A stretch of 64,000 bases of DNA from Adineta ricciae (taxonomy: Eukaryota > Rotifera > Eurotatoria > Adinetida > Adinetidae). The notes beneath the pieces are model-generated. The model saw nothing but the letters and a program-made list of their open reading frames with translations, did not search any database and was not told the origin of the DNA. The stretch covers positions 124,001 through 188,000 of the forward strand of contig CAJNOJ010000025.1 of NCBI GenBank assembly GCA_905250025.1, written 5' to 3'. The position numbers and the translations under genes are program-made. This document shows, piece by piece, positions 10,683 to 37,598 of this stretch (positions are counted from its first letter, which is position 1; the number at the start of each line of letters is the position of its first letter).

Positions 10683-13600
10683 AAAATCAGTTCCTTAGAA
10701 CATCCCATACATATACATATATGTTTTTCTCGATCATAATTAATTTCAAATAAAAAAACAACAGCACACCTGCATCGAGTAACTCAGTTTTTTTTCCTTC
10801 TTCATACAATTGATCAAATATCGTACTTGATTTGTCATCATTAATCCTGATCATATGAAAGAAATACAAAGAGTAATTGTATTCACTTTGTGATATGTCT
10901 GTAAATAGTGATCGAATGACTTTCAAGTGACTTGAATTACAGTTATCGATAGATACAACGTGTGTGTGTGTCACGATTAATCGGGCAAAACAATTTTGAA
11001 CTGTGATCGATTAGCGAATGTTTAAGGCAACGAGAAAGAGAGAGAGAATAGCGGCGCGTCAATCGATTGAGATACGTATAGACAGTCTGATAAATATCCG
11101 ACAGCAATTGTCTTTTTGTTTCTTATCTACCTTGTTAAATGTTTCAAATTTGCGGTAAATGTATTGTTCTCTTTAGAAAGATATCTGTTAAACATTTTCA
11201 AATAGAACAGTGAAGCGCATTTGCTCTTGAATATCAAGGATTCTTATCGAATATCATCATCATTTGAAGTGTGTCATATCCAGAATGAACGGAGGCTATA
11301 TATAATCACTAGCTGAACACAAATAAATCAAATGCATACATCTGTTATCAATATCGATTTTCTTTTTTCATTTGATAAACTGTTTATTATAAACAGAAGA
11401 AATCATTTGATACAGATTGAGATCAATGAACATGATGCAATGAAAAGCGACAACTTCGCTCTCTGTACTATTTCCACACGATTTCGTTTTCACGTCTGTG
11501 ATTAGCTGAAATTGAAGACAATCGGTCATTTTCATTCTTGAATTGTTCCATTCTTTGTGTTTTATAAGGTGACAATGACAATCTGCTTTTGTCTTGTCGC
11601 TTGGGAATGTTGTTCGCTTCTTTGTAGTTCTAATGCGATAAAAAATCAAATGAGAGAAGCAAGTGTTTAATCGCATAAACACACACACCCATTTCGATCC
11701 TTAGTTGAATTTTTTTAACAGTAAAATTGAAATTTGTATGAAGGTTACCAAGTAAGAGAAAATTGAACGTGTTTAATCGACTAATCTGATTGTTTGCATA
11801 CACATTGACAAAATATCATTTCAATCTCTCTTTCGCGAACGGAGGGTAATTGTGTGTATCAAACAACATATTCATTTACAGAACTGTATCGTATGTCATT
11901 CTCTTCATCGACTGTTAAAGATAAGGTAAGATCTTTCTTTCAAGACATAGCCGCTAGAAAACAGAATGATCAGTGAAATGGGACATCACTTCACCTTGAT
12001 AGTCACCATTCATTAATTCAATAGCGTTATCTTTGTTTCAGATTTCTTTCTTTTTTTTTTTCATAAGATGTATATTCTTCTTTACATTGATGTGCAATAT
12101 GAGCCTTTCGAAGGTCATTCTTTCAATGAAGATATTTCTTTCTCTTACATATACACATGTATTTATATCTATATTGTATAATAATGTTCATCCCTCTTCC
12201 TGAGACTTTGCATTAACATACGAGAGATTTCCGTTAACCTTCGAGTTCAATTCGTGTATAAAATGTCTGTGTGTACATGTTATACCAGTCTTTGTACGTT
12301 TGTCATCTAAGTAAGTGAAGATGAGCCCTTGGTTTGGTTCGAATAGAAAACGATGAGTCTCACACCCAAGCGAAAAGAAAAGAAAAAAAGACGTGGAGAG
12401 TGATTTAACATGAAATTGACATTCGTTTTTCAAGGTTCAATTGAGTCTAAGCTGCGTTGAAATGGATATGAATTAAACTTGCTGAAGAAGAAAGAATAAA
12501 GTGAACGTGTATTCTAATGATATGTTTCTGCGATGGTATGTTAAATGATACATATAATTTCATGTCTCGTCCTGCTGCCAGCGCAGTATATATTGCCAGT
12601 GAGTATGAAGAAAAAGAAAAGAATATGAACATGAGTCTTCATTGCTCGTTCAGGGTAAGAATTAATCACTAAGCAGAAAATCTCTCGGATCAAATTAGTC
12701 GTTTCGATATGTAGACGATTGGGGAGAAAATGAATGATTTCGAAAGGAGATGAGATATTGAAAAATGAAGAGTTGATTGAAAAAAAAGTAAATCTCACTT
12801 GTCTTTGTCAATATCAAATATATATATATATCTCTTTCGCTTTATTTGTTTTCTTTCTTGAATGTACTTCTTGAGTTTGTTTAATCAAATATTAATTACA
12901 CTCTCCTCTCCATCACTTGACGTCATCTGTTCATACATATCCGCAGAATTTGACAATTCGACACCACCAGACTCTCGTATCATATCAAACAAACTAATTN
13001 NNNNNNNNNNNNNNNNNNNNNNNNNNNNNNNNNNNNNNNNNNNNNNNNNNNNNNNNNNNNNNNNNNNNNNNNNNNNNNNNNNNNNNNNNNNNNNNNNNNA
13101 CAATCCATTAAGAGTTACCAACAACAATACAATGAATAGCTTACATATATGTATGATTGAACAGGTTCAGAGAAGAGAACAGGCTTCTTGCAATTGGTTA
13201 TACTGTGCAATCAAACTAGGCAATCAGAATATGTTTGCTTGAGTTCATGTGACAGCAAGCAGAACTGTTACGTCGATATCTCTTCTCCGCGTTTTTCGGT
13301 ATGCGTGTGTGTTTATTTATGCACATTGTTCAGAATCAGTGAATATGTATATGCGATAAGCAAGAACCTTCAACCGTTCAACTGTTGCAGCATAAAATAT
13401 GCACTGACCTCTTTCTCTGTTGTTCTTGAGATCTTTCTCTTCCGCTTGATGCAATGAATTCTTTTCAAACTGACCGTTTATTCTTTCTCTTTTTTGACTT
13501 CATTGAACACAAAAGAGTTGGAGTTACGATGTCCTTCTTTGGACAAACATTATCGATGAAGAAAGAGAAGAAAAAAAATCAACTTTTAAAGAATCCATTA

Positions 13601-14814: not shown

Positions 14815-17800
14815 ATGGTTAACAGATCAATAATCTTTTCTTTATTTCTCCTATGTATTCTCACTTTCGATCAGAATGTCACAGCATCAAGTAAGTTCAA
14901 AACAAATCGATTTACTTCTACTTACCTGCTGGCACTGTTTACTTCTCATTCGCTAGTAACAAATCGAGGCAACGAAGTATTTCAATTATTGAAAGAAACA
15001 CGAGATCGAGTCAAACATGGTACACGTACGTAACGATGATTCACGCAAATGTTTTGTACACAAAGTTTACTTTTTAGAATGTCTTCCACCATCAAAGTAT
15101 TTTGCCGGGTCATGCTATACTTACATGCGATTGTTACCAGCCACATCATGGGAACGAGCATATAATAATTGTCAAACATTGTCCATGGGAAGAGATGCTC
15201 GATTGTTAGTGATCGATTCTATTGCGGAATATGAATTTGTTGAACGGGAACTCATCGGACCGAAATCAGGATCTGATAGTGTTTCAGTTTATGTTGGATT
15301 ACGTAAAATCAATGGTGAGTCATCGAATGTTTTCGTTTTTCAACGAGTGTTTGTGTTTGTTCAGATACATGGCTATGGTCGAACGATGTGCCATTGAAAG
15401 AAACTCCGATATATCGATTTTGGGTCGATAATAACAAGGATATTCTTGCCTATGATTGTGGTGTTCTCTGGCTGGCTCGAAATCGAAGTGTATTAACAGC
15501 AGCTGCTTGTGCTGAACAAGCTCTACGACCGTATGTTTGTAAACATAGTAAGTTATACAATTTGTAGGATAAAAAATGAAACAGCGATAACATTCGATTG
15601 TTTTTACCTTCTTTAGCAATCGATCGTTGTTATAATAATAGTGGGGGTTGTGGAAAATACGGAACATGTATAAATTTACCATTGATCAATTCTCATAAAT
15701 GTCAATGTCGATTTCTATACAGCGGAGCGCGATGTGAAAAATGTAAGTGATCTTAGTTTATATTGAAAAATATTTCATTTCTGAAAAATCATTCAGGGAG
15801 TAGTCAAGGTTTACAAGCAATCATTGGTGGTTTTATCATTGTTGTAGCGTTGATTGCTTCGTACATTATCAATCTAGATCGATCAGGTGATCAATGGTCT
15901 TTTCATAAATCAACTGCTGAACATTACCAGGCGTATGTTCCCCATTATTGATAAATTTTCAATGGACATTTTCGTCTTTCAGTGCAACTTTCTATGGTCA
16001 AAGTCGTCCGACATCGTATATGCCGCGATCTCCAGACGCAATCGATCGTGTTATCTTCAATCCATGTTTGCCTCCTCACGACGATTTTTTCGATGCATCA
16101 ACTCCGAATGAAAAACGTCATCGACGAACTTCTTCTTCCTCAACTCCTCCGCCAATTCCTCCACCAATTGGCCGCTCAATTGAACGTAAACATCGCTATT
16201 CCTTTCGTCGTAGCGTTCAAGAACTTCAAGTCACATCTCACATACGTAATATATTCATTAAACCAAAACGTTTGATTTTCATTATTCTACCCATCGTTCT
16301 CACAATTATTATTTCGGTGATCATTGTTCATGCAAAACATTATATCAAAGAAAACATCCTCCAAGCATCTTATACGAATACAACACGATTATTTCAATTT
16401 TGTGCTTTATATGATAATAATTATTATGTCAATTTGGTAACATTACCAATTGCTCTGGCTATTATTGGATTCATTATCGTGAATGAAACTCGTACGAGGT
16501 GCTGTCGGTGTGTAAAAGGGAAAGGCTCTATTTATACACCTATACCATACAATCCATTTTCGAAAGTCAATCGTTTGGATACGATGATTCTCTGTGGAAT
16601 CGTTAGTCATGAAATTCTTCAGATCATCGAAGAAATTTTTCTCAAAGCTTCGCAAATGAAATTGTTAACAATGCGTGGGCCTTTATTCGATCTTATTCGA
16701 CAAATCGGTCTCGTAATCATTATTGGTATGCGTTACTATCCCGTCTATTCAGTTGTTGAAATGACCGATGCAAATATTCTGTATTATGGTCTCTGCGCAT
16801 TATATATGTGGATTGATTTAATCCTACGAACCATTGAACAATCATATTGTGCGAATATCGGACCATTGATTAAGACATGGCATCGATTTCAACAATTTCG
16901 AAAGGAAGTTACATCACAATTTGTAACAAGTTCACTGATGACAACAACTGTGGGAACGAATGTGGAGCATGACGGGTTGAGAGGACATTTTCAGAAGTAT
17001 CGAGAACGATTTGCGAACAGAAAACATCGAACTTCGTCTTCGACAATGTTTCCGGTAATCATTAGACTGAAAATTCTTGTTTTTCTTTATAATGGTATTC
17101 GTTTTTCGTTTTAGCCATTACCAGTAAATGTCAATCCGAGTTCATCATTGAATTGGTCATCAATTTATTTGAATTTTTCTTCTCTTCATGATCGCAATGA
17201 ATCTCAATCAACGTTTGAACAATTCAATATTGATTCGTCAATTATCGGTGTTCTTAAATACGCTCCATATTACATATGTTTAACATATATCTGTATTCGT
17301 TTAACTTATTTATTTCTTTTCAAACTCTTTGCTTTACTTCGTTATTGTAATCAAGAGAAAAATTCCTCTCCGAAACATTCATCCAAACATATCTATCACG
17401 AACCAGATCTCAACAATTCTCTACCTTCACCATCCTCTGAAACGTTATCTGTAGAGTATCGTTATGTTCGTCATTTACTACAAAAAACTCAACGTACATT
17501 AGTTAAAACCAATGAGAAAATCTCATTTGTCAAATCTATATTATACAAAATCTATCGTCCAAACAAATATTTCAATTATTCGAAACAAATTTTGAACATG
17601 TATATGATTGCTTTTATGTTAACTTATTATTTAACATTCAACATTCTTCAAGCTGGCTTTTACATCATTGAGAAACTCTACAGTATATTCGCAATTCCAT
17701 TGATTGTACTCTCTGACGAACTTGACTTGCCACAACCACAACCGTTCAATTTAAAATACGAAATCATGGTTGCTTGTTTTCTAACTGCTGGAATTTATTA

Positions 17801-18913
17801 TTTGCAATTGTTATGGGGAATGAAGAGTTATCAAAAACATATGTTGGATAGTTATAAAGGTAAGGAAAGTTGATTTCGGATATCGGAAAGATTAATTTCG
17901 ATTGATGTTTTAGGAATTTTCATTGATATTCCACCGAGATCTGCGTTTAAAAGCGCAAGATTGATATCGAAACATGCGCATTACCCAGGATACTGTTTAG
18001 CTTATCTGGGCTTCGCGTACATATCGATGGGAAACGTGATTTTTGTGACAATTGTTGTTCTACGTGTAATTTTCAAACATCTTTATTTCGTTGAACAAAT
18101 CGCGAAAGTTCTCATACCGATCATGGTGATTTATTTATCGAAATTTATATTAATGTGGTTTCTCTCACGAACATTCTTTATCCAAAAGTAAGTTTTGATC
18201 TTCTTGCTTTGCGCAAATTGAATATCTTGGGAAATTTTAGACATGGGAAAACGATGGCGCTGAAGAATCTTCGAGCATTTTTTGTCTTTTCATATTTCAA
18301 TTTCTTCTTCGACTGTTTTCTCGGTTTTGTTTCCTGCAGTCTTCGTGTAACAAAAGCATCCATCGCTGCAATAATCTTCCTTCCACGACTGGATTACTGT
18401 ATCTTCGGACGAACATTAGAAAAACTGGATTCGGGCTTTATCTCTTACGTCACGTTTATTCACATGGAATGTCTTCACACACATCCTGTCCTCATCTATT
18501 ATTGTTCATTGGTGAGCGAAAAGATCCTTCAACGTCAACGAGTCAGTCAATTAAGCAAACGGGAAATTCGTCAGTCTGATCTGTGTACATATACACGTCG
18601 ACAACGAGTAATCTTTCGTTGGTATTTGGTATATACATTGATACGAAACAGTCAATTAGCACGGCTGAGAAAGCACGAAGTGTCTCGTTTTCAATTACAA
18701 TCTGCCGAGAGTTTTAATGAGTTTTTAGAACGCAAATTTTTCAATCGTTTTCAGTTACCGACAACAAAATTTAATTTAACGACGAATAGTCAAACAAATT
18801 TACATCAAAATGGAACAACGAATTCGAATACAATCATTCGAAATCAAACAACAGCATGTACAACTTTACTATTAGATGGCTATGAACATGATGATCGCAA
18901 ACCATCCTATTAA
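14815..18913 (+). CDS. C-type lectin/EGF ectodomain fused to a STRA6-like multispan receptor
   Basis: Nine exons (14815-14890, 15078-15314, 15365-15547, 15617-15742, 15797-15932, 15983-17054, 17115-17859, 17914-18187, 18241-18913) join without a break into 1,173 residues. Residues 1-25 are a signal peptide. Residues 26-165 are a C-type lectin domain with the C-Y-T-Y start and C-G-V-L-W ... Y-V-C-K-H end. Residues 166-208 are a six-cysteine EGF domain, followed by a membrane helix (about 214-236) and a Pro/Ser-rich cytosolic stretch. From about residue 345 onward there are many membrane spans. Hallmarks of STRA6, the retinol-binding-protein receptor, follow: Y-R-Y-V-R-H-L-L, L-D-S-G-F-I-S-Y, T-H-P-V-L-I-Y-Y-C-S-L near the end, and Y-T-L-I-R-N-S-Q. 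The core could move retinoid or another lipid ligand across the plasma membrane; the lectin/EGF head could capture a glycosylated carrier. That role is inferred. Confidence 0.82.
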
Positions 18914-19213
18914 TAAGCAGTCTTTCACTCAAATTGACAAGAATTTGCTCAATTTGAACAATTCCATCTAATATATGAACGGAGAGAAAGAGAGAAGAAT
19001 CTGTGCGTGTGTGTTTTTCAACTTTTGCTTTTGTTCGACAGTATTATGATGATAATATCTCTACAAAACCATATGTGTTTTGTAGCAGTTTTGTTTTTTG
19101 TACATAGAATGTTTCTGTTTTTCGTTTCATAACATTTTCCAAATCATTGTGCGAGAATGTATATGTATGAATTCTTTTCAATTTAGTCTATTTTTTGACA
19201 AAGAACAGATTTC

Positions 19214-19219
19214 AATAAA
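19214..19219 (+). terminator. Polyadenylation signal AATAAA
   Basis: The hexamer lies 300 bases after the stop of the lectin-STRA6 gene and is the first clear one downstream on this strand. Confidence 0.45.
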
Positions 19220-19390
19220 ATACTTTGGTATATTCTTTATATACCAGATGTGATTTCCATAGGCAGATGTTAATCTTTACAAAAATCAAAGTACACATCG
19301 GATTGTAAACCCTCCCAAGCATAGAGTTTCGCACAAGAGTCTATTCAAATATCCGCAATGAGTCATGGCAAATATGTACTTGCATATTAG

Positions 19391-20050
19391 ATGAAATCGT
19401 CTGAAAAAAGGTCCTATTTATGTATGCGATACCTGGAAGATATTGTTCGAGCAAAACCTCTTGGTAATCGAATATATTTTCATGAATTAAAATCGCAAAT
19501 TCTATTTGACGACGTCAAGGTGATAAATGTCTACTCTTTCTTCATTTGCGCTTGTCAGATCATTCGGCTTTATTGGCTCTCTAAAACCACATCAAGCCTT
19601 TCGAATGCAAATATTCCTAAAGAGTAAATAGGTGGAATAAATAATTTGCAAAAAAAAAACGTAAGAAAATTACCATAATCAAGTTGTTTTTACTCGGTTC
19701 AATCCTTTCGCATTACGCGAAGCTTTTAATCTTTCTAGTCAAGTTCTTTTCCCTAAAGAACTCGATGTAGCTATTATTGAATATCTCCTTACTTTTTTCG
19801 TGAATATTACACATTGTTTCCATTTCTACTTATTCCTCGAAACAGACATCCGACTGCGAAGGAGAGGCGACGAAAAAAAGTTACACGAAATCCACCCAGT
19901 CTTACTCAATATAGTCAGATCGATGCGACTATTAAAAAAACTGAAAGAAAAGTAAAAACGAAAGGAAGAACTATTAGTTCAAGTACCATACGACGAACGA
20001 TTCAAGCTTCCTCTTCAGTCAGTATGGCTTCCAAAAACGAAATCGAATAA
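19391..20050 (+). pseudogene. Gene-like patch, probably broken or only partly read
   Basis: Several short stretches look coding but do not join cleanly. One runs from 19391 (directly after a TATTAG acceptor-like site) through R-Y-L-E-D-I-V-R-A-K-P-L-G-N-R to a possible donor at 19519. A second, near 19,700-19,800, reads R-F-N-P-F-A-L-R-E-A-F-N-L-S-S-Q then K-E-L-D-V-A-I-I-E-Y. A third, 19,850-20,050, is strongly basic (K-E-R-R-R-K-K-V-T-R) and ends at a TAA at 20,050. Joining them in one frame needs unsupported splice sites or meets stops. It may be a decayed gene or a fast-evolving real gene with small exons. I recognise no family. Confidence 0.3.
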
Positions 20051-29661: not shown

Positions 29662-32509
29662 ATAACGATGTTTTCTCATCAGATTTTATGAAGATCGCTT
29701 TCTTCATGTTTTTTTTTATCTCGCAAAGAAATACTATTTACTCATTTCCTCACTATGTATCTCAAACAATGTCTTTTCTTTTGTGTCTATTTTCCTACTA
29801 GTCTCATTATGTTGATTAGAATCTTTTCTTTCTTTTTTTTCTTATTGTTGTTGTTGTATTGTAGCATTCTAGTGCTTTCTCATTGTCAATGTGAATGGAT
29901 GAATGAATTTCGAGAATTAACAAAAGGAAGAGAGAAACAAAAAGAGAATCAACAATTAAAGATAATTACTCGACTTCGAAGAATTTCAACTTTCGCACTT
30001 TTTCCATCAAGAATAGAATTGATTTAGTATATGTGAATAATAAGATTTAATCTGAAGTTAAACTTGATAATCAATTTCCCAGATTGCAATTGTCAATAGT
30101 ACCCATTGTACAATCAATGTTTAACACAATTTTCTATTGTATTGATATAAGAGGATGGAAAATCGATAATTCATCCTTGTCTGCGGAATATCAGACAAGT
30201 TAAGTAGAATAAGCTCATCTGTTGGATGAAGCGGTTTTGTCTAGCATTCCTAATATTTTATGACATCATCGTATTTGAAGGTCATGTGCTGTGCGTGCTC
30301 GTATATAACATCGATAAGTAGATGCTTTATCTCTTGATCTTATCGTGTATTGAGTCATGATAATCGAAATCCAGGATTATGGGGAATCTTTAAAGGAAGA
30401 GAAATATTTCTTTTTGTTGACGTATTTGGGAGAAGTTTTTAATATAGAATGTATGTAGTCTGAGTATTTAAGCGATTTTATTGATCTAGCCGAGCGAAAA
30501 ATGGGAATGCATTAAACTTTAGTGATGATTTGCTTTGAAAATAAAGGTAGGAACAAAGTTTTTGGTTATCTCGGGAAAAAAAACAGATTGAAAGTATTCA
30601 GTTCGGTAGGTTTCTTTTAATCAGAACCCTTGATATGCTTATTCATCTTGGTGATAAGTCAAGTGTTTTGTTTATTTTTAAGCAACAAGATGATAAGCAA
30701 TCTCTATTGTTTATCATGTGATATATGGAAATTTACGCGATAGAAAGATGACAATACTCGTTTATTAAAGTTCTAAATTTGCATCTGCTATCACTTACAC
30801 AAAACGTAGACCATAGTCCGCGAAATGTTAAGTTTCGCATCGGCTGACGCCCTTATGTGCCCGGGCTTTTTCAAATAATTAGTATTTCGCTACGCAGAAA
30901 AAATCCTGTTCGATCGTCCAATCAAAGAATATTTCATTTCGCAATATATCGTGAGTCATAACTGAAGACAAGTTCGGTGAAACCAGATGTACACTACGGA
31001 GAAAAGGCAGCCCATTTCACATTTAGTTTGCCCCATGCGTCATGAAACAAATTATGGATAAGGGTTATTTTCTTTGCAGGGATCGAAATGCATCACTAGA
31101 GAATGCAATTGTGTCTGTACGAGTATGATTTCACCGAAGCACATTCGTGTAGACCGGATTGTATGACCAATAGGAAGGTTATGTTCGATACTGATTAAAA
31201 TTTTCCAGATATTTCGCGCTTAGACAACTGTTTTAGTTCGAGAACTTCACGTAGAACAAAGTATTTTTATTGTGTACCCAAGGGGACGTTGCCATTTGTA
31301 TATATTTCTCCGTCTATTATTTAAAATGCTGATACCATGGCATCATCTATTTCAGTAGACAGCAAGCGTCATAACTAATTATCATATATAGACTATGTTT
31401 AGCAAAGGTAGCCAGATGCGGTGGTTCGATTTGGAAGAACAATACAAGTCTAGCGTTGTCATGATGCGTTGATGTTTTTCTTTCCCTGTGAAAAAATAAG
31501 TTCTCATCAACTAGCACTTAAACTCTGCTGTTTCTTAGCAACCTGTGAGTCAAGAGTATTTTGGTCGAGAACAGAATTCCATGTCTGCTCGATTTTCTGT
31601 TGCAAAGCGCCACCTACTCAAATCAGCGTGTTCTCGAATGCACACGCACAATGCGTCATTTCTGTTACATATCATTAGTTCATCAAACTTCCAATGATAA
31701 ATTGAGAAAGAAAAACAAAAAAAAACATTACAGATAGATTGACATAACATTGATTACTAATTGTAGATTAGCTAACTAAAAGATCGAAAAACGATTGAAT
31801 CATACAAACATTTCCTATTTACCTTTTTCTTGTATATGATATATTTCAACGGTCTGTTTTACAAAAAAAGAATAACCTATAAACTGTGTTACATTGCATT
31901 GATGTAAATTTGAAGAAGACGGTCGTGTAGTTTCAATTTCAATATTGTTTTGGTGTCTTGACAGGTATGATATTTCTACATTTTCAATTTTTTTTTCTTC
32001 AGTTTTGTTACAATCGATTTCACTCTAATCCCGGTCACATGCTGTTTTTTGTTTGACATGAGTAATAATACACCAATGATTGCCTGCGAGATTTTTATCT
32101 CATTCTTTCTTGTACAATTTTGGTAATGGAAAAATCATTAGTTGTCAGGTGTGAGGTATGTGAAAAATCAGCAAAATGCATTACCAAAAACAAAAGTAAT
32201 TAGAGTAAATGACGACATCGATGTATTCGATTTCGTTGACTGAAAGATTAATATTGACATATAAAAGAAAGTGGTAAACTGACGAAAGAATGGCAGTTTC
32301 CTTGACGAACAATCTTTAACCTTATGACACATAAACGAATTTCAACTATTTTTTCTCTTTCGGATCATAACGAGTCATGCGCAAATACTGATAAGATCTT
32401 TCTCTTTTATCATACTCACCTTTCTTTTATACTAAAGTATTTCGAATTCAGTTTTTAGATTGCTTTGCAATGATTTTGTCAATCGTTTATATAAAAATCC
32501 TATAAACAC
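29662..32509. other. Gene-free region
   Basis: About 2.8 kb with no supported exon. The part 30,780-31,450 differs in texture from other spacers, with fewer T tracts and more CG-containing words. No terminal repeats or coding remnant could be recognised. Confidence 0.45.
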
Positions 32510-34510
32510 ATGGCCTGTCTCAGCGAATGTCGATTCCTGAATCGAGCATTAACAATTGACGATATATCCAAGAAGCCCCATTGTAAGAATCTGAAATTCA
32601 AACGTGCGTTCCAGTTTCTTCAGTTGCTGTTACTACAACGTGTCTATTGCATTGATGTCATGTCATGTACAAAATTTCGGCGGCCAATGAAACTTTGTCA
32701 ACAACGACGAGAAGAAGATCATAACTATGAGGTATTTCTAGGTGGCTCATGTAATCCAACAACGTGGCGGCATGATCAGGCAATACCATACTTTCAATCT
32801 CGGTCCGTATCGTTTTATAATCCGCAAGTGTCCGAGTGGACACCCGAACTTGTTGAAATTGAGCATCGCGCAAAAGAATTAGCGCCGCTATTGTTCTTCG
32901 TTATCGATTATGATACGAGGGCGTTAGCATCTATTATTGAGGTATCGTATCTAGCTGCGCGCGGGCGAAGTATAATTGTTGTTATGACTCCTATGCCGGA
33001 GAGAAAGTATACGAAATTCATTCAAGAAAAAAACAGTGCCAACGAAAAAGACGATGAAGATGATTATGAAAATGCGTATGAAGGTCGAAGAACATTACGA
33101 ACATTGTTACGAAGTTTGAATATTCCATTCTTTGATAACGTACAATTAGCTCTTGAATGCGCTGCTTTCATACTTGAGTCAACTAAACGAACAGTATATA
33201 CTCAGAGTGTTTTTAATGAAAACAATGAAGAGGATGGCAATGAACGAGGTAACCAATCTCATCTGATCTTATTTGAAATGAATGTATTCTTCTGCTTTTA
33301 GATGTCCTAACGCCTTTGCCCATGTCACCCGGTGAATATGATGATAAAAGACCGTCATCCGTAGTTGTCATTCGTTCCCTCTCGAATAAAACATCGTTCG
33401 ATTCACCCGATGAATTCTATAAGCAAATGCATCAATCAGAAATGATGACATCGATGTCACCGTTCCGTCGACGACGCAGTTCAACTCCAGAGCCAAGTAT
33501 TATTCAAATCTGATTCTTTGCTTTGTCCAATTAATATTCTTGTTTCAACTATTCATTAGATATGACGCAATTTCGATCAACAACTGCTTGTACAAAATCC
33601 CAAATATCATGTTCAACAAATGAAAGTGATGATGATGGGTATGGCTCACTTTCATCAAGTAATCGCACACTCTCTTCATCATCGCTGTCCGTTTCTTCGG
33701 AATTATTCGAAGCTACAAGCGATCAACAGCGTGAAGATAATGTTACAGGGCAAGTCTATTTCTCCACAATGATAAACGATATATGAGCAAATGTTTTCTA
33801 TTAGATCTGATAAAAACGTATCGAACTCCACAATTAACAATTTGATTTCAAGATTTTATTCTTATATTCCATTTGTGGGTTCAGCCCAACCATCAGATTC
33901 ATCAGTAACACAATCGCTCTTCGTATTATTTACTCTTCCATTTCGTTTTATCAAACAATCATTGCTTTCTCCTACTTCATCAACACCATCCATCTCCTCA
34001 TTTCCAACATTCACACAAACAACTCCCTCGAGTCCATCTCCATGCCATGCTTTGTTTCAACCACCTACGCATATGTTTGATCTTTACATAGCATCAGGTA
34101 CTAGTGATGAATGTTGGTTGAACACTTTTGCTCTTCCAATGCTGGAGCAAATCAATGTAACATTCATCAAACGACAATCATGTCATGAAAACGATCAAAC
34201 CGACGCACTTGATGACATACATATACGTAAACAATCACGTGTTTTGTTCTATATGATTAATGGCCGTGAACGTTTGTCACCTTTAACCAGTGAACTAGCA
34301 TTTCACATCGGTCAACGTAAACATAAGATCGTAGTTTATCTGCTACCAAATATCGATGACGATGCTGACCAGATTTGTTCGGCAACTGAACGCCGAGATA
34401 TTCAACGTTCAAGAAAATATCTCGAAGACTTAGTTCGAAAAGAGAACATCACATTATGCCATTCCCGAGAGCAGAGCTGGGAGCATGTTTTAGCGCTTTT
34501 CAAGATATAA
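32510..34510 (+). CDS. Raw/OLRN-1-like protein with two nucleoside-deoxyribosyltransferase-like domains
   Basis: Four exons (32510-33248, 33302-33496, 33560-33749, 33805-34510) give 609 residues. Residues 72-165 (Y-E-V-F-L-G-G-S-C-N-P-T-T-W-R onward) match the nucleoside 2-deoxyribosyltransferase-like domain of Drosophila Raw and nematode OLRN-1, including F-F-V-I-D-Y-D-T-R-A and E-V-S-Y-L-A-A-R-G-R. A second, divergent copy fills the C-terminus (F-D-L-Y-I-A-S-G-T-S-D-E-C-W, then V-L-F-Y-M-I-N-G-R-E-R-L, E-L-A-F-H-I-G-Q-R). The linker is Ser-rich. Raw damps JNK signalling and OLRN-1 acts in neuron fate; neither is known as an enzyme, so a signalling role is likely. The third intron uses a GC donor. 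A TATATAAAA sits only about 20 bases before the ATG, so the true start may be a downstream Met (for example at 32,660). Confidence 0.78.
33750..33804 (+). other. GC-AG intron
   Basis: The donor reads AGG then GCAAGT, and the acceptor TTAG. Only this choice keeps frame (phase 2, giving Gly-Ser-Asp-Lys). The nearby GT four bases downstream would put TGA in frame at once. Confidence 0.75.
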
Positions 34511-35116: not shown

Positions 35117-37598
35117 ATGACATTCGCTGTTAGTTCGAATGATTATCATTCAGCATTAACAACGGTAATGTCCGGTGAACAACAAGTGACGAGCTTGGAT
35201 CATGCGGCAAGGACAGTGTCGAAAATATCATCGTACCTTCGACAAGGATTCTTGTGTGATGTGGTTTTTATTTGCGGACACGGACAAGTTAAACAACGAA
35301 TTAGTGCGCATCGACTCGTAGTCGCAACTCTATCTGATTATTTTCGAGCGATGTTTGAGAGTAATATGCTTGAAACAAAACAACGTGAAATCATGATTAA
35401 TGATATTGATCCGGATGCATTAGAGAAATTAATTTTATATGCATATGAAGGTAAACGAATGTTCTCTCGTCTGTTTTACTGGAAATACTTTTTTGGCAGG
35501 TCGTCTGGAACTTCATCAGGATAATGTTACCAATATTCTCGTTGCTGCACATATGTTTAATATTACTGAAATTATCGATGCTTGTTGCAAATATATCGAA
35601 AAACAACTTCACCCGTCGAATTGCCTTGGAATTTATAAATTCGCTCTTCAACATGATTTACACGACTTGACTCAAACTGCTTGGAATTATGTTTTAGTAT
35701 GATGAAGAAATCATTTGATTCGTCAAAGTTTTTTCTTGGAATTTTTTAAGGAACATTTCACAAATGTTATTCAAAATAACCATGAATTTCTGGAGTTGTC
35801 GTTCGATGAAATGAAACAAATTTTAGCATCAGGTGAGTTCCATCATAAAATCAAACGACCTCTCAGACTCTACCTCCCTTGGCTTTAAGCAATATGAGCA
35901 AGTAATCCTGACTGTTGGGCAAACTTTATTGAAATTCGATCTTTTTCTTAATGATCAAATATTTGAATAATAAACAAAGTTTTTCTATCGTTCATTAGGT
36001 GATATCAATGTGCAATCAGAAGAAACTGTATTCGAAGCATTCCTTTCTTGGATTGATCACGATTCGAAACGGCAAAACGATCGACTGCCACAACTCTTTG
36101 GTTTAATTCGATTGCCATTAATTGATAAAAAAGTAAACTTGTTACTAAGAAGATCTTTTCCGACAAAATCGAATGATATTTTCGTTTTTCTATTGATTTA
36201 GTATTTAACAGATCATATTGATACAGATTCACGATTTAAAAATGATACTTCATGTCAGATGTTGATTATTGAAACAATGCGTTACCATTTAGCGCCAGAA
36301 AAACGATCGAGTATGCAATCGATACGAACAAAACCGAGAAAAGCAACATTAGGTGCTCTCTATTGTCTTGGCGGAATGGACAGTGCGAAAGGTATTGAAT
36401 GTATTTAAACGCACATTTTAAATTTATTTGAAACAATCGATTGTTTTCTGAAATTAGGTCCACAAACGATTGAACGATATGATTTTCGAACACGTTCGTG
36501 GCAGCCAAATGGTACTTTGAATACACGTCGTTGGCAATTTGCGTGTGTCATTTTAGAGAAAAAGCTATACGTATGTGGAGGACGCGACGGATTGAAAACG
36601 TTAGTGTATCTGAAAAAATATCTGGAAACATGTCAACGCTATTCCTTTATAGATTAAATAGTATAGAAATATTTGATTTTCAAAAGAAAGTTTGGAACAT
36701 TGGACAACCAATGTTAACCAACCGACACGGATTAGGCGTTGGATGTATTGGTGGTCCATTGTATGCAATTGGTGGCCATGATGGTTGGAGCTTTCTCAAT
36801 ACAGTAGAACGTTTTGATCCAGAAACATGTGTTTGGTCATATGTTGCACCGATGACTAATGCTCGATGTACACTTGGTGTTGCTGTTCTTGAAAATCGGT
36901 AAGAGATCGATTTGAATGATGATAAACTAATGATTACTATTGATATTTTAGCATATATGCAGTGGGCGGTCGAGATGGTGCTGCAGGTCTGCGAGAAACT
37001 GAATCATACGATCCGCATACGAATCGTTGGTCATCATGTGCACCAATGCAGAAACGTCGTGGGGGTGTAGCTGTAGCAGCTTGTAACGGATTTTTATTTG
37101 CGATTGGCGGTCATGAATCATCTGCAACAAATAAATGTGCTGTGAGACACGACGACGGGGAACGTTATGATCCAAGATGCGATCAATGGACATTAATTAC
37201 GTCGTTGACTCGTCCAAAAGAAGCTCTAGCAATTGCTGCTGTTGGTGATAAATTATATATTGTTGGTGGATTTGATGGAAAAGTACTTGATGAAGTCGAA
37301 AAATACGAACCAGTAACAGATAAATGGACTAAAGTAAGCAGATTCATTTGCGAAGTAAAAAGCAACGAAATCATTGTTTTCTACATTCTAGTGTTCACCA
37401 TTAGGAACTAAGAGAGCTGGTGCTTGTCTGATTCATGTTCCGAATTATATTTATCAATCATCATTACCAACATCCCCATCGTCATTATCTTCATTAACTA
37501 CAAGTTCTTACACATTACCATCATCACCATCTTTAACTAAACGAAATAAAGATGTATCAGCTAGTTGTCACCAATTGAGTCGTCTTGTTTTTTCTTAG
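35117..37598 (+). CDS. Kelch-like protein of the KLHL1/4/5 group (BTB-BACK-Kelch)
   Basis: Nine exons (35117-35450, 35500-35696, 35751-35832, 35999-36132, 36202-36391, 36458-36599, 36653-36898, 36952-37333, 37392-37598) give 637 residues. The BTB domain covers about residues 35-150 (C-D-V-V-F-I-C-G ... S-A-H-R-L-V-V-A). BACK follows with K-Q-L-H-P-S-N-C-L-G-I, a near-exact match to KLHL5. Six kelch repeats with G-G blades (A-I-G-G-H-D-G-W-S, A-V-G-G-R-D-G, I-V-G-G-F-D-G) fill residues 330-590. T-K-P-R-K-A-T and G-G-M-D-S-A-K are also shared with KLHL1/4/5. Such proteins are Cullin-3 substrate adaptors or actin-linked cytosolic factors. The start is the first ATG, at 35117. One donor is GTTAGT. 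A Ser-rich tail follows the last blade. Rab33 begins 294 bases downstream on the same strand. Confidence 0.92.

Follow-up and report, generated by a model that had tools for sequence, protein, structure and literature searches.

Gene structure and surroundings

The window, a 64-kb stretch of Adineta ricciae DNA, carries on its forward strand a predicted gene (14815-18913) in which exons for a C-type-lectin-like domain (CTLD) and an EGF-like module are followed in frame by exons for a multispan core of the family of STRA6, the vitamin A (RBP4) receptor of vertebrates. Splicing the nine exons in silico yielded 1173 codons with no internal stop, confirming the intact nine-exon, 1173-residue frame of the original prediction. 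All eight introns of the gene are bounded by GT and AG. Its features are as follows:

14815..14890 (+): exon 1; start codon and signal-peptide-like stretch, residues 1-25
15078..15314 (+): exon 2; first part of the CTLD; phase 1-1
15365..15547 (+): exon 3; second part of the CTLD; phase 1-1
15617..15742 (+): exon 4; EGF-like module with six cysteines; phase 1-1
15797..15932 (+): exon 5; TM0, the first hydrophobic stretch past the head, and a short stub; phase 1-2
15933..15982 (+): joining intron, 50 bases; weak donor, good acceptor; in-frame TGA TAA and a GATAAA inside
15983..17054 (+): exon 6; Pro/Ser/Arg-rich linker, TMa, presumed STRA6 helix I and more hydrophobic stretches
17115..17859 (+): exon 7; STRA6-family core, with the profile match starting at 17451 (residue 723)
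17914..18187 (+): exon 8; STRA6-family core
18241..18913 (+): exon 9; end of the STRA6 core, calmodulin-site-like stretch (18590-18676), C-terminal tail and stop
19214..19219 (+): AATAAA, the sole one within 14815-19400, about 300 bases past the stop

An alternative gene model places a tenth small exon between the signal peptide and the CTLD (14957-15019 or 14957-15025, from two donors six bases apart). Both variants stay in frame and give proteins of 1194 or 1196 residues; residues are numbered throughout on the 1173-residue model. With a codon-bias model trained on the STRA6-like core of the same gene, exons 2-5 scored 0.14-0.25 bits per codon in their own frame and negative values in the other two. 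A tblastn search of the 64-kb window for a second copy returned the gene itself and otherwise nothing below E 0.45.

Among ten frames scanned elsewhere in the window, we identified animal-type genes with Ig I-set, kelch, DHHC palmitoyltransferase and C2H2 zinc finger domains. A forward-strand frame at 184-768 matched Chlorophyllase (PF07224; 3.5e-07, 29.8 bits against 26), which is unusual in animals and possibly acquired, and the frame at 855-1271 may extend it. On the reverse strand, 1325-1813 carries a GFA domain (PF04828; 7.6e-06, 26.4 bits against 24.3), a family that is mainly bacterial and fungal. A nucleoside 2-deoxyribosyltransferase-like domain (PF15891; 2.8e-18) lies at 32495-33298 on the forward strand. 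An assembly gap of 100 N (13000-13099) precedes the gene by 1.7 kb. A search for further introns at seven other gene boundaries of the window gave one clear case (36899-36951) and one possible GTATAT donor (28879).

The C-type-lectin-like and EGF-like head

Scanned alone, residues 26-165 matched the Pfam Lectin_C profile (PF00059) at E 1.8e-10 (42.0 bits, cut-off 22.6), a match that the Pfam scan (E up to 1) did not report for the whole protein or for residues 1-252. The same residues matched 41 PDB sequences at E up to 10, all of which we take, from their names, to be C-type-lectin-like proteins. The top match was the PLA2 receptor (6.7e-10, with several domains summed), and langerin was matched at 2.3e-4. 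The domain shares the Lectin_C fold with these two proteins and has six cysteines and a VYVGL motif; unlike in these C-type lectin-like receptors, an in-frame multispan core follows it. The usual calcium and sugar motifs of C-type lectins are EPN or QPD, plus WND, and a pattern search found none of the three types in residues 26-165. Because these patterns are absent, we make no claim to a calcium-dependent lectin: judged from its sequence, the region is a CTLD fold for which that status is not supported. The capture of a glycosylated carrier by the lectin head, as first suggested for this gene, loses its support for the same reason.

The module encoded by exon 4 has six cysteines with EGF-like spacing. 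Alone, it reached 3.7e-05 and 24.3 bits with EGF_3, below the curated cut-off of 28.5, and it also fell below the Pfam cut-offs for EGF (18.4 against 21.5) and EGF_2 (17.1 against 22.1). The hydropathy scan further identified a hydrophobic, signal-peptide-like N-terminus. Thus, the head first proposed for this protein stands as to its CTLD, its hydrophobic stretch at about residues 208-238 and its signal-peptide-like start, and its EGF domain becomes a module that is EGF-like by its six cysteines and scores below the Pfam cut-off.

The STRA6-family core

The whole protein matched the Pfam RBP_receptor profile (PF14752) at E 6.8e-33 (114.7 bits, cut-off 25), over residues 723-1095 and profile positions 201-605 of 605. 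A phmmer search of the PDB with residues 253-1173 returned zebrafish STRA6 (5SY1; E 4.9e-19) as the sole sequence at E up to 1, with the chain aligned to the core from 208 to 638. STRA6 similarity does therefore exist within residues 345-1173, on which the original prediction had staked its receptor core. It is confined to residues 723-1095 of that region, however: up to E 10, exon 6 (residues 253-610) failed to match RBP_receptor and residues 253-696 failed to match any PDB sequence. Given these two negative results, the first half of the core resembles STRA6 in hydropathy only, and the stretch that would hold the first five helices showed no sequence similarity to STRA6 in these searches. 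A model of exon 6 folded from its sequence alone had a mean pLDDT of 44.9, too low to use. The protein encoded by exon 7 had no relative in bacterial, archaeal or viral contig collections, nor that of exon 6 in viral contigs, results that say little because the collections hold bacteria, archaea and viruses.

Two functional parts of STRA6 could be compared with the core. Residues 1067-1095 (18590-18676) align without gaps to the calmodulin-binding stretch CaMBP2 of zebrafish STRA6, whose peptide letters are given in a passage of PMC7154012; 11 of 29 residues are identical in this phmmer alignment, which carries no control. The RBP-binding part of STRA6 is described as sitting between helices VI and VII (in a passage of PMC4584289), and the stretch aligned to it here is weakly matched and gapped. 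For this reason, the core cannot be said to bind an RBP4-like lipocalin. In sum, the predicted product shares with STRA6 (5SY1) the profile match over 723-1095, may keep part of a CaMBP2-like helix, and would add to it the putative signal peptide, the CTLD, the EGF-like module, TM0, the linker and TMa.

Predicted topology

Helices were inferred from the hydropathy scan. Two stretches precede the core, TM0 (about residues 208-238, with the best 19 residues at 15820-15876) and TMa (about residues 342-375; 16272-16328). Eleven more lie beyond TMa:

residues ~401-419, 455-473, 493-511, 516-534 and 653-682: the first five hydrophobic stretches after TMa
residues ~769-792, 791-809, 827-845, 900-918, 924-948 and 962-997: the other six hydrophobic stretches after TMa

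The N-terminus of STRA6 lies outside, and the stretch at 16425-16481 was taken as STRA6 helix I. If 791-809 is assigned to the VI-VII part and 962-997 to the intramembrane helix, the nine stretches left can, by our assignment, be read as helices I-IX. The passages cited here give STRA6 nine transmembrane domains (PMC4584289, PMC3546623), with either five extracellular and four intracellular parts (PMC4584289) or five of each (PMC3546623).

In a fused protein, TM0 would enter the cytosol after cleavage of the signal peptide, TMa would return the chain to the outside, and the next helix would then cross from the outside inward, like STRA6 helix I. TMa would be needed because TM0 would end in the cytosol and STRA6 helix I starts outside. 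Counts of K/R in the 15 residues before and after TMa (4/2) and the next helix (1/5) agree with this arrangement, because they are those expected with a cytosolic linker; the counts beside TM0 are equal (2/2) and its direction is not fixed by charge. The two extra stretches ahead of the core can in this way restore the orientation of STRA6. TMa is explained by fusion only, and the lack of any reason for an extra helix on a separate STRA6 core counts against two genes. We rejected the stronger argument that topology excludes two genes, because an independent core using TMa as an N-in first helix would also have the correct orientation, a point in favor of the two-gene model.

The putative joining intron

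The head and the core would be joined in frame across intron 15933-15982, which we scored with a matrix built from the other seven introns of the gene. Its donor (GGC/GTATGT) scores -0.9, the lowest of the eight donors and a value that 44% of the 3276 GTs in the window outside the gene equal or exceed; the donor at 17055 in the same gene is nearly as low (-0.2). The acceptor scores 5.8, which is reached by 3.8% of 2885 AGs. Twelve joins keep the frame when donors from 15830 to 15989 and intron lengths of 36-260 bases are allowed. A GTCTTT donor at 15897 used with the same acceptor at 15982 gives a sum of 7.1 against 4.9 for 15933-15982, and a 44-base join at 15887-15930 scores 4.6. The exact donor is not certain, because the one at 15897 outscores 15933 in sum. 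We also searched dinucleotide-preserving shuffles of 15900-16019 for joins with donors at 15900 or later and lengths of 44-90 bases, a range that leaves out the 15897 donor. Some in-frame join appeared in 828 of 2000 shuffles and one scoring as well as 15933-15982 in 100 of 2000, so the join beats chance at about one in twenty only.

In length and T content, 15933-15982 is intron-like. It has 50 bases, compared with 50-69 in six of the other introns and 187 in one, and its T content of 44% falls among the 36-52% of six other introns, against 33% in two intergenic stretches. Left unspliced, the chain would end in AYVPHY at an in-frame double stop inside the intron (TGA TAA, 15949-15954), which is overlapped by a GATAAA at 15950. 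These results qualify the earlier description of the join. The frame is intact across 15932/15983, as had been proposed. The ends called normal are indeed GT-AG with a good acceptor, but the donor is the lowest of eight; likewise, the reported lack of a polyadenylation signal holds for AATAAA but has to be set against the GATAAA.

One protein or two

We favor one fused protein that carries the CTLD/EGF-like head on the STRA6-family core, with a probability of about 0.6. The order of CTLD, EGF-like module, helix and STRA6-family core that had been predicted holds in the DNA, and its expression as a single transcript is favored only. The product would be a single receptor of about 1173 residues with a signal peptide, a long-form CTLD, the EGF-like module and TM0, then a cytosolic linker, the second extra helix TMa and a nine-helix core of the STRA6 family with its intramembrane helix and a C-terminal helix of calmodulin type. 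Such a receptor would be of unusual design. Two genes or alternative ends jointly hold a substantial minority of the odds.

The better of these two alternatives, which we consider unlikely, is a pair of genes that may form an operon. The first would encode a type I lectin-EGF membrane protein ending at the TGA TAA (15949-15954), and the second a separate STRA6-like protein starting at the ATG at 16020, with a spliced leader joined at 15983 and TMa as an N-in first helix. The double stop and GATAAA just beyond exon 5 support such a pair, as does a weak cis donor next to a good acceptor. In two bdelloid species, an identical 23-base spliced leader is found on over half of the transcripts (in a passage of PMC1925144), so the AG at 15982 could serve as a trans-splice acceptor. 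Furthermore, a STRA6-like gene of A. vaga, FUN_025721-T1 ("stimulated by retinoic acid 6-like"), appears in a published table with PF14752 alone (PMC12220480), which favors a separate core, with the limit that the table may omit domains and the gene may be a paralogue. This gene is expressed and was under-expressed in the flight condition, with a log2 fold change of -1.28 (PMC12220480).

The sequence past the acceptor argues the other way. The first AUG there (15994) lies in another frame than the core and begins an open frame of 93 codons; the sole in-frame AUG before the hydrophobic stretches is the one at 16020, and the next is at 16584. Codon bias does not decide the frame over 15983-16019 (0.43 in frame against 0.50 in the next frame) and barely decides it over 16020-16260 (0.29 against 0.20). 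Moreover, just 31 bases separate the end of the first stop (15951) from the end of the acceptor (15982), and AATAAA is absent near the join, both of which weigh against two genes.

One gene could also make two products, a short membrane lectin with the tail AYVPHY, if the 50-base intron is retained or the transcript ends early, and the long spliced fusion. Both forms would be possible given the weak donor and the stop that follows it by 16 bases, but we regard this as a distinctly improbable outcome.

Returning to the single fused protein, the exon phases bear on how it could have arisen. Exons 2-4, which encode the CTLD and the EGF-like module, begin and end in phase 1, and the TM0 exon is in phase 1-2. 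Phase 1 at both ends is typical of exons shuffled between genes. The head was probably added by joining the exons of a lectin-EGF membrane gene to a STRA6-like gene, and the splicing of the one gene onto the other is the simplest history that we infer. Among the matches listed in a search of open-licence literature, we found no report of a lectin-STRA6 fusion. In that literature no paper named both STRA6 and bdelloid rotifers, and in the single paper naming STRA6 and rotifers, STRA6 appears only in the reference list.

Proposed function and significance

The head of a fused receptor would most likely dock a partner, whether protein or particle, close to the mouth of the core, and the core would let a lipophilic ligand (a retinoid or a sterol-like compound) into the cell in the manner of STRA6. 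Lipid passage is suggested here by homology of the core. We tentatively propose, at somewhat less than even odds, a receptor of eleven helices: two added ones would tether the C-type-lectin-like and EGF-like head, which would hand a carrier or food particle over to a lipid passage of the STRA6 type. If true, this would be a STRA6 with its own capture arm and no dependence on RBP4.

A somewhat unlikely alternative, applicable under either gene model, is that the core is a STRA6-derived signaling or sterol receptor and not a retinoid carrier, and that the head, if joined, is a cell-contact or immune sensor. The weak and gapped alignment of the RBP-binding region between helices VI and VII would fit such a role, as would the partly kept calmodulin-type helix and the suggestion, in a passage of PMC5954442, that cholesterol fills sites in zebrafish STRA6. 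Yet the divergence may mean merely another carrier.

Should head and core turn out to belong to different genes, the locus would hold an ordinary STRA6-like gene beside a membrane lectin. STRA6-like genes beyond vertebrates raise the question of the first role of the family. A built-in binding head, if true, would point to another carrier and would make docking and passage separable for study.
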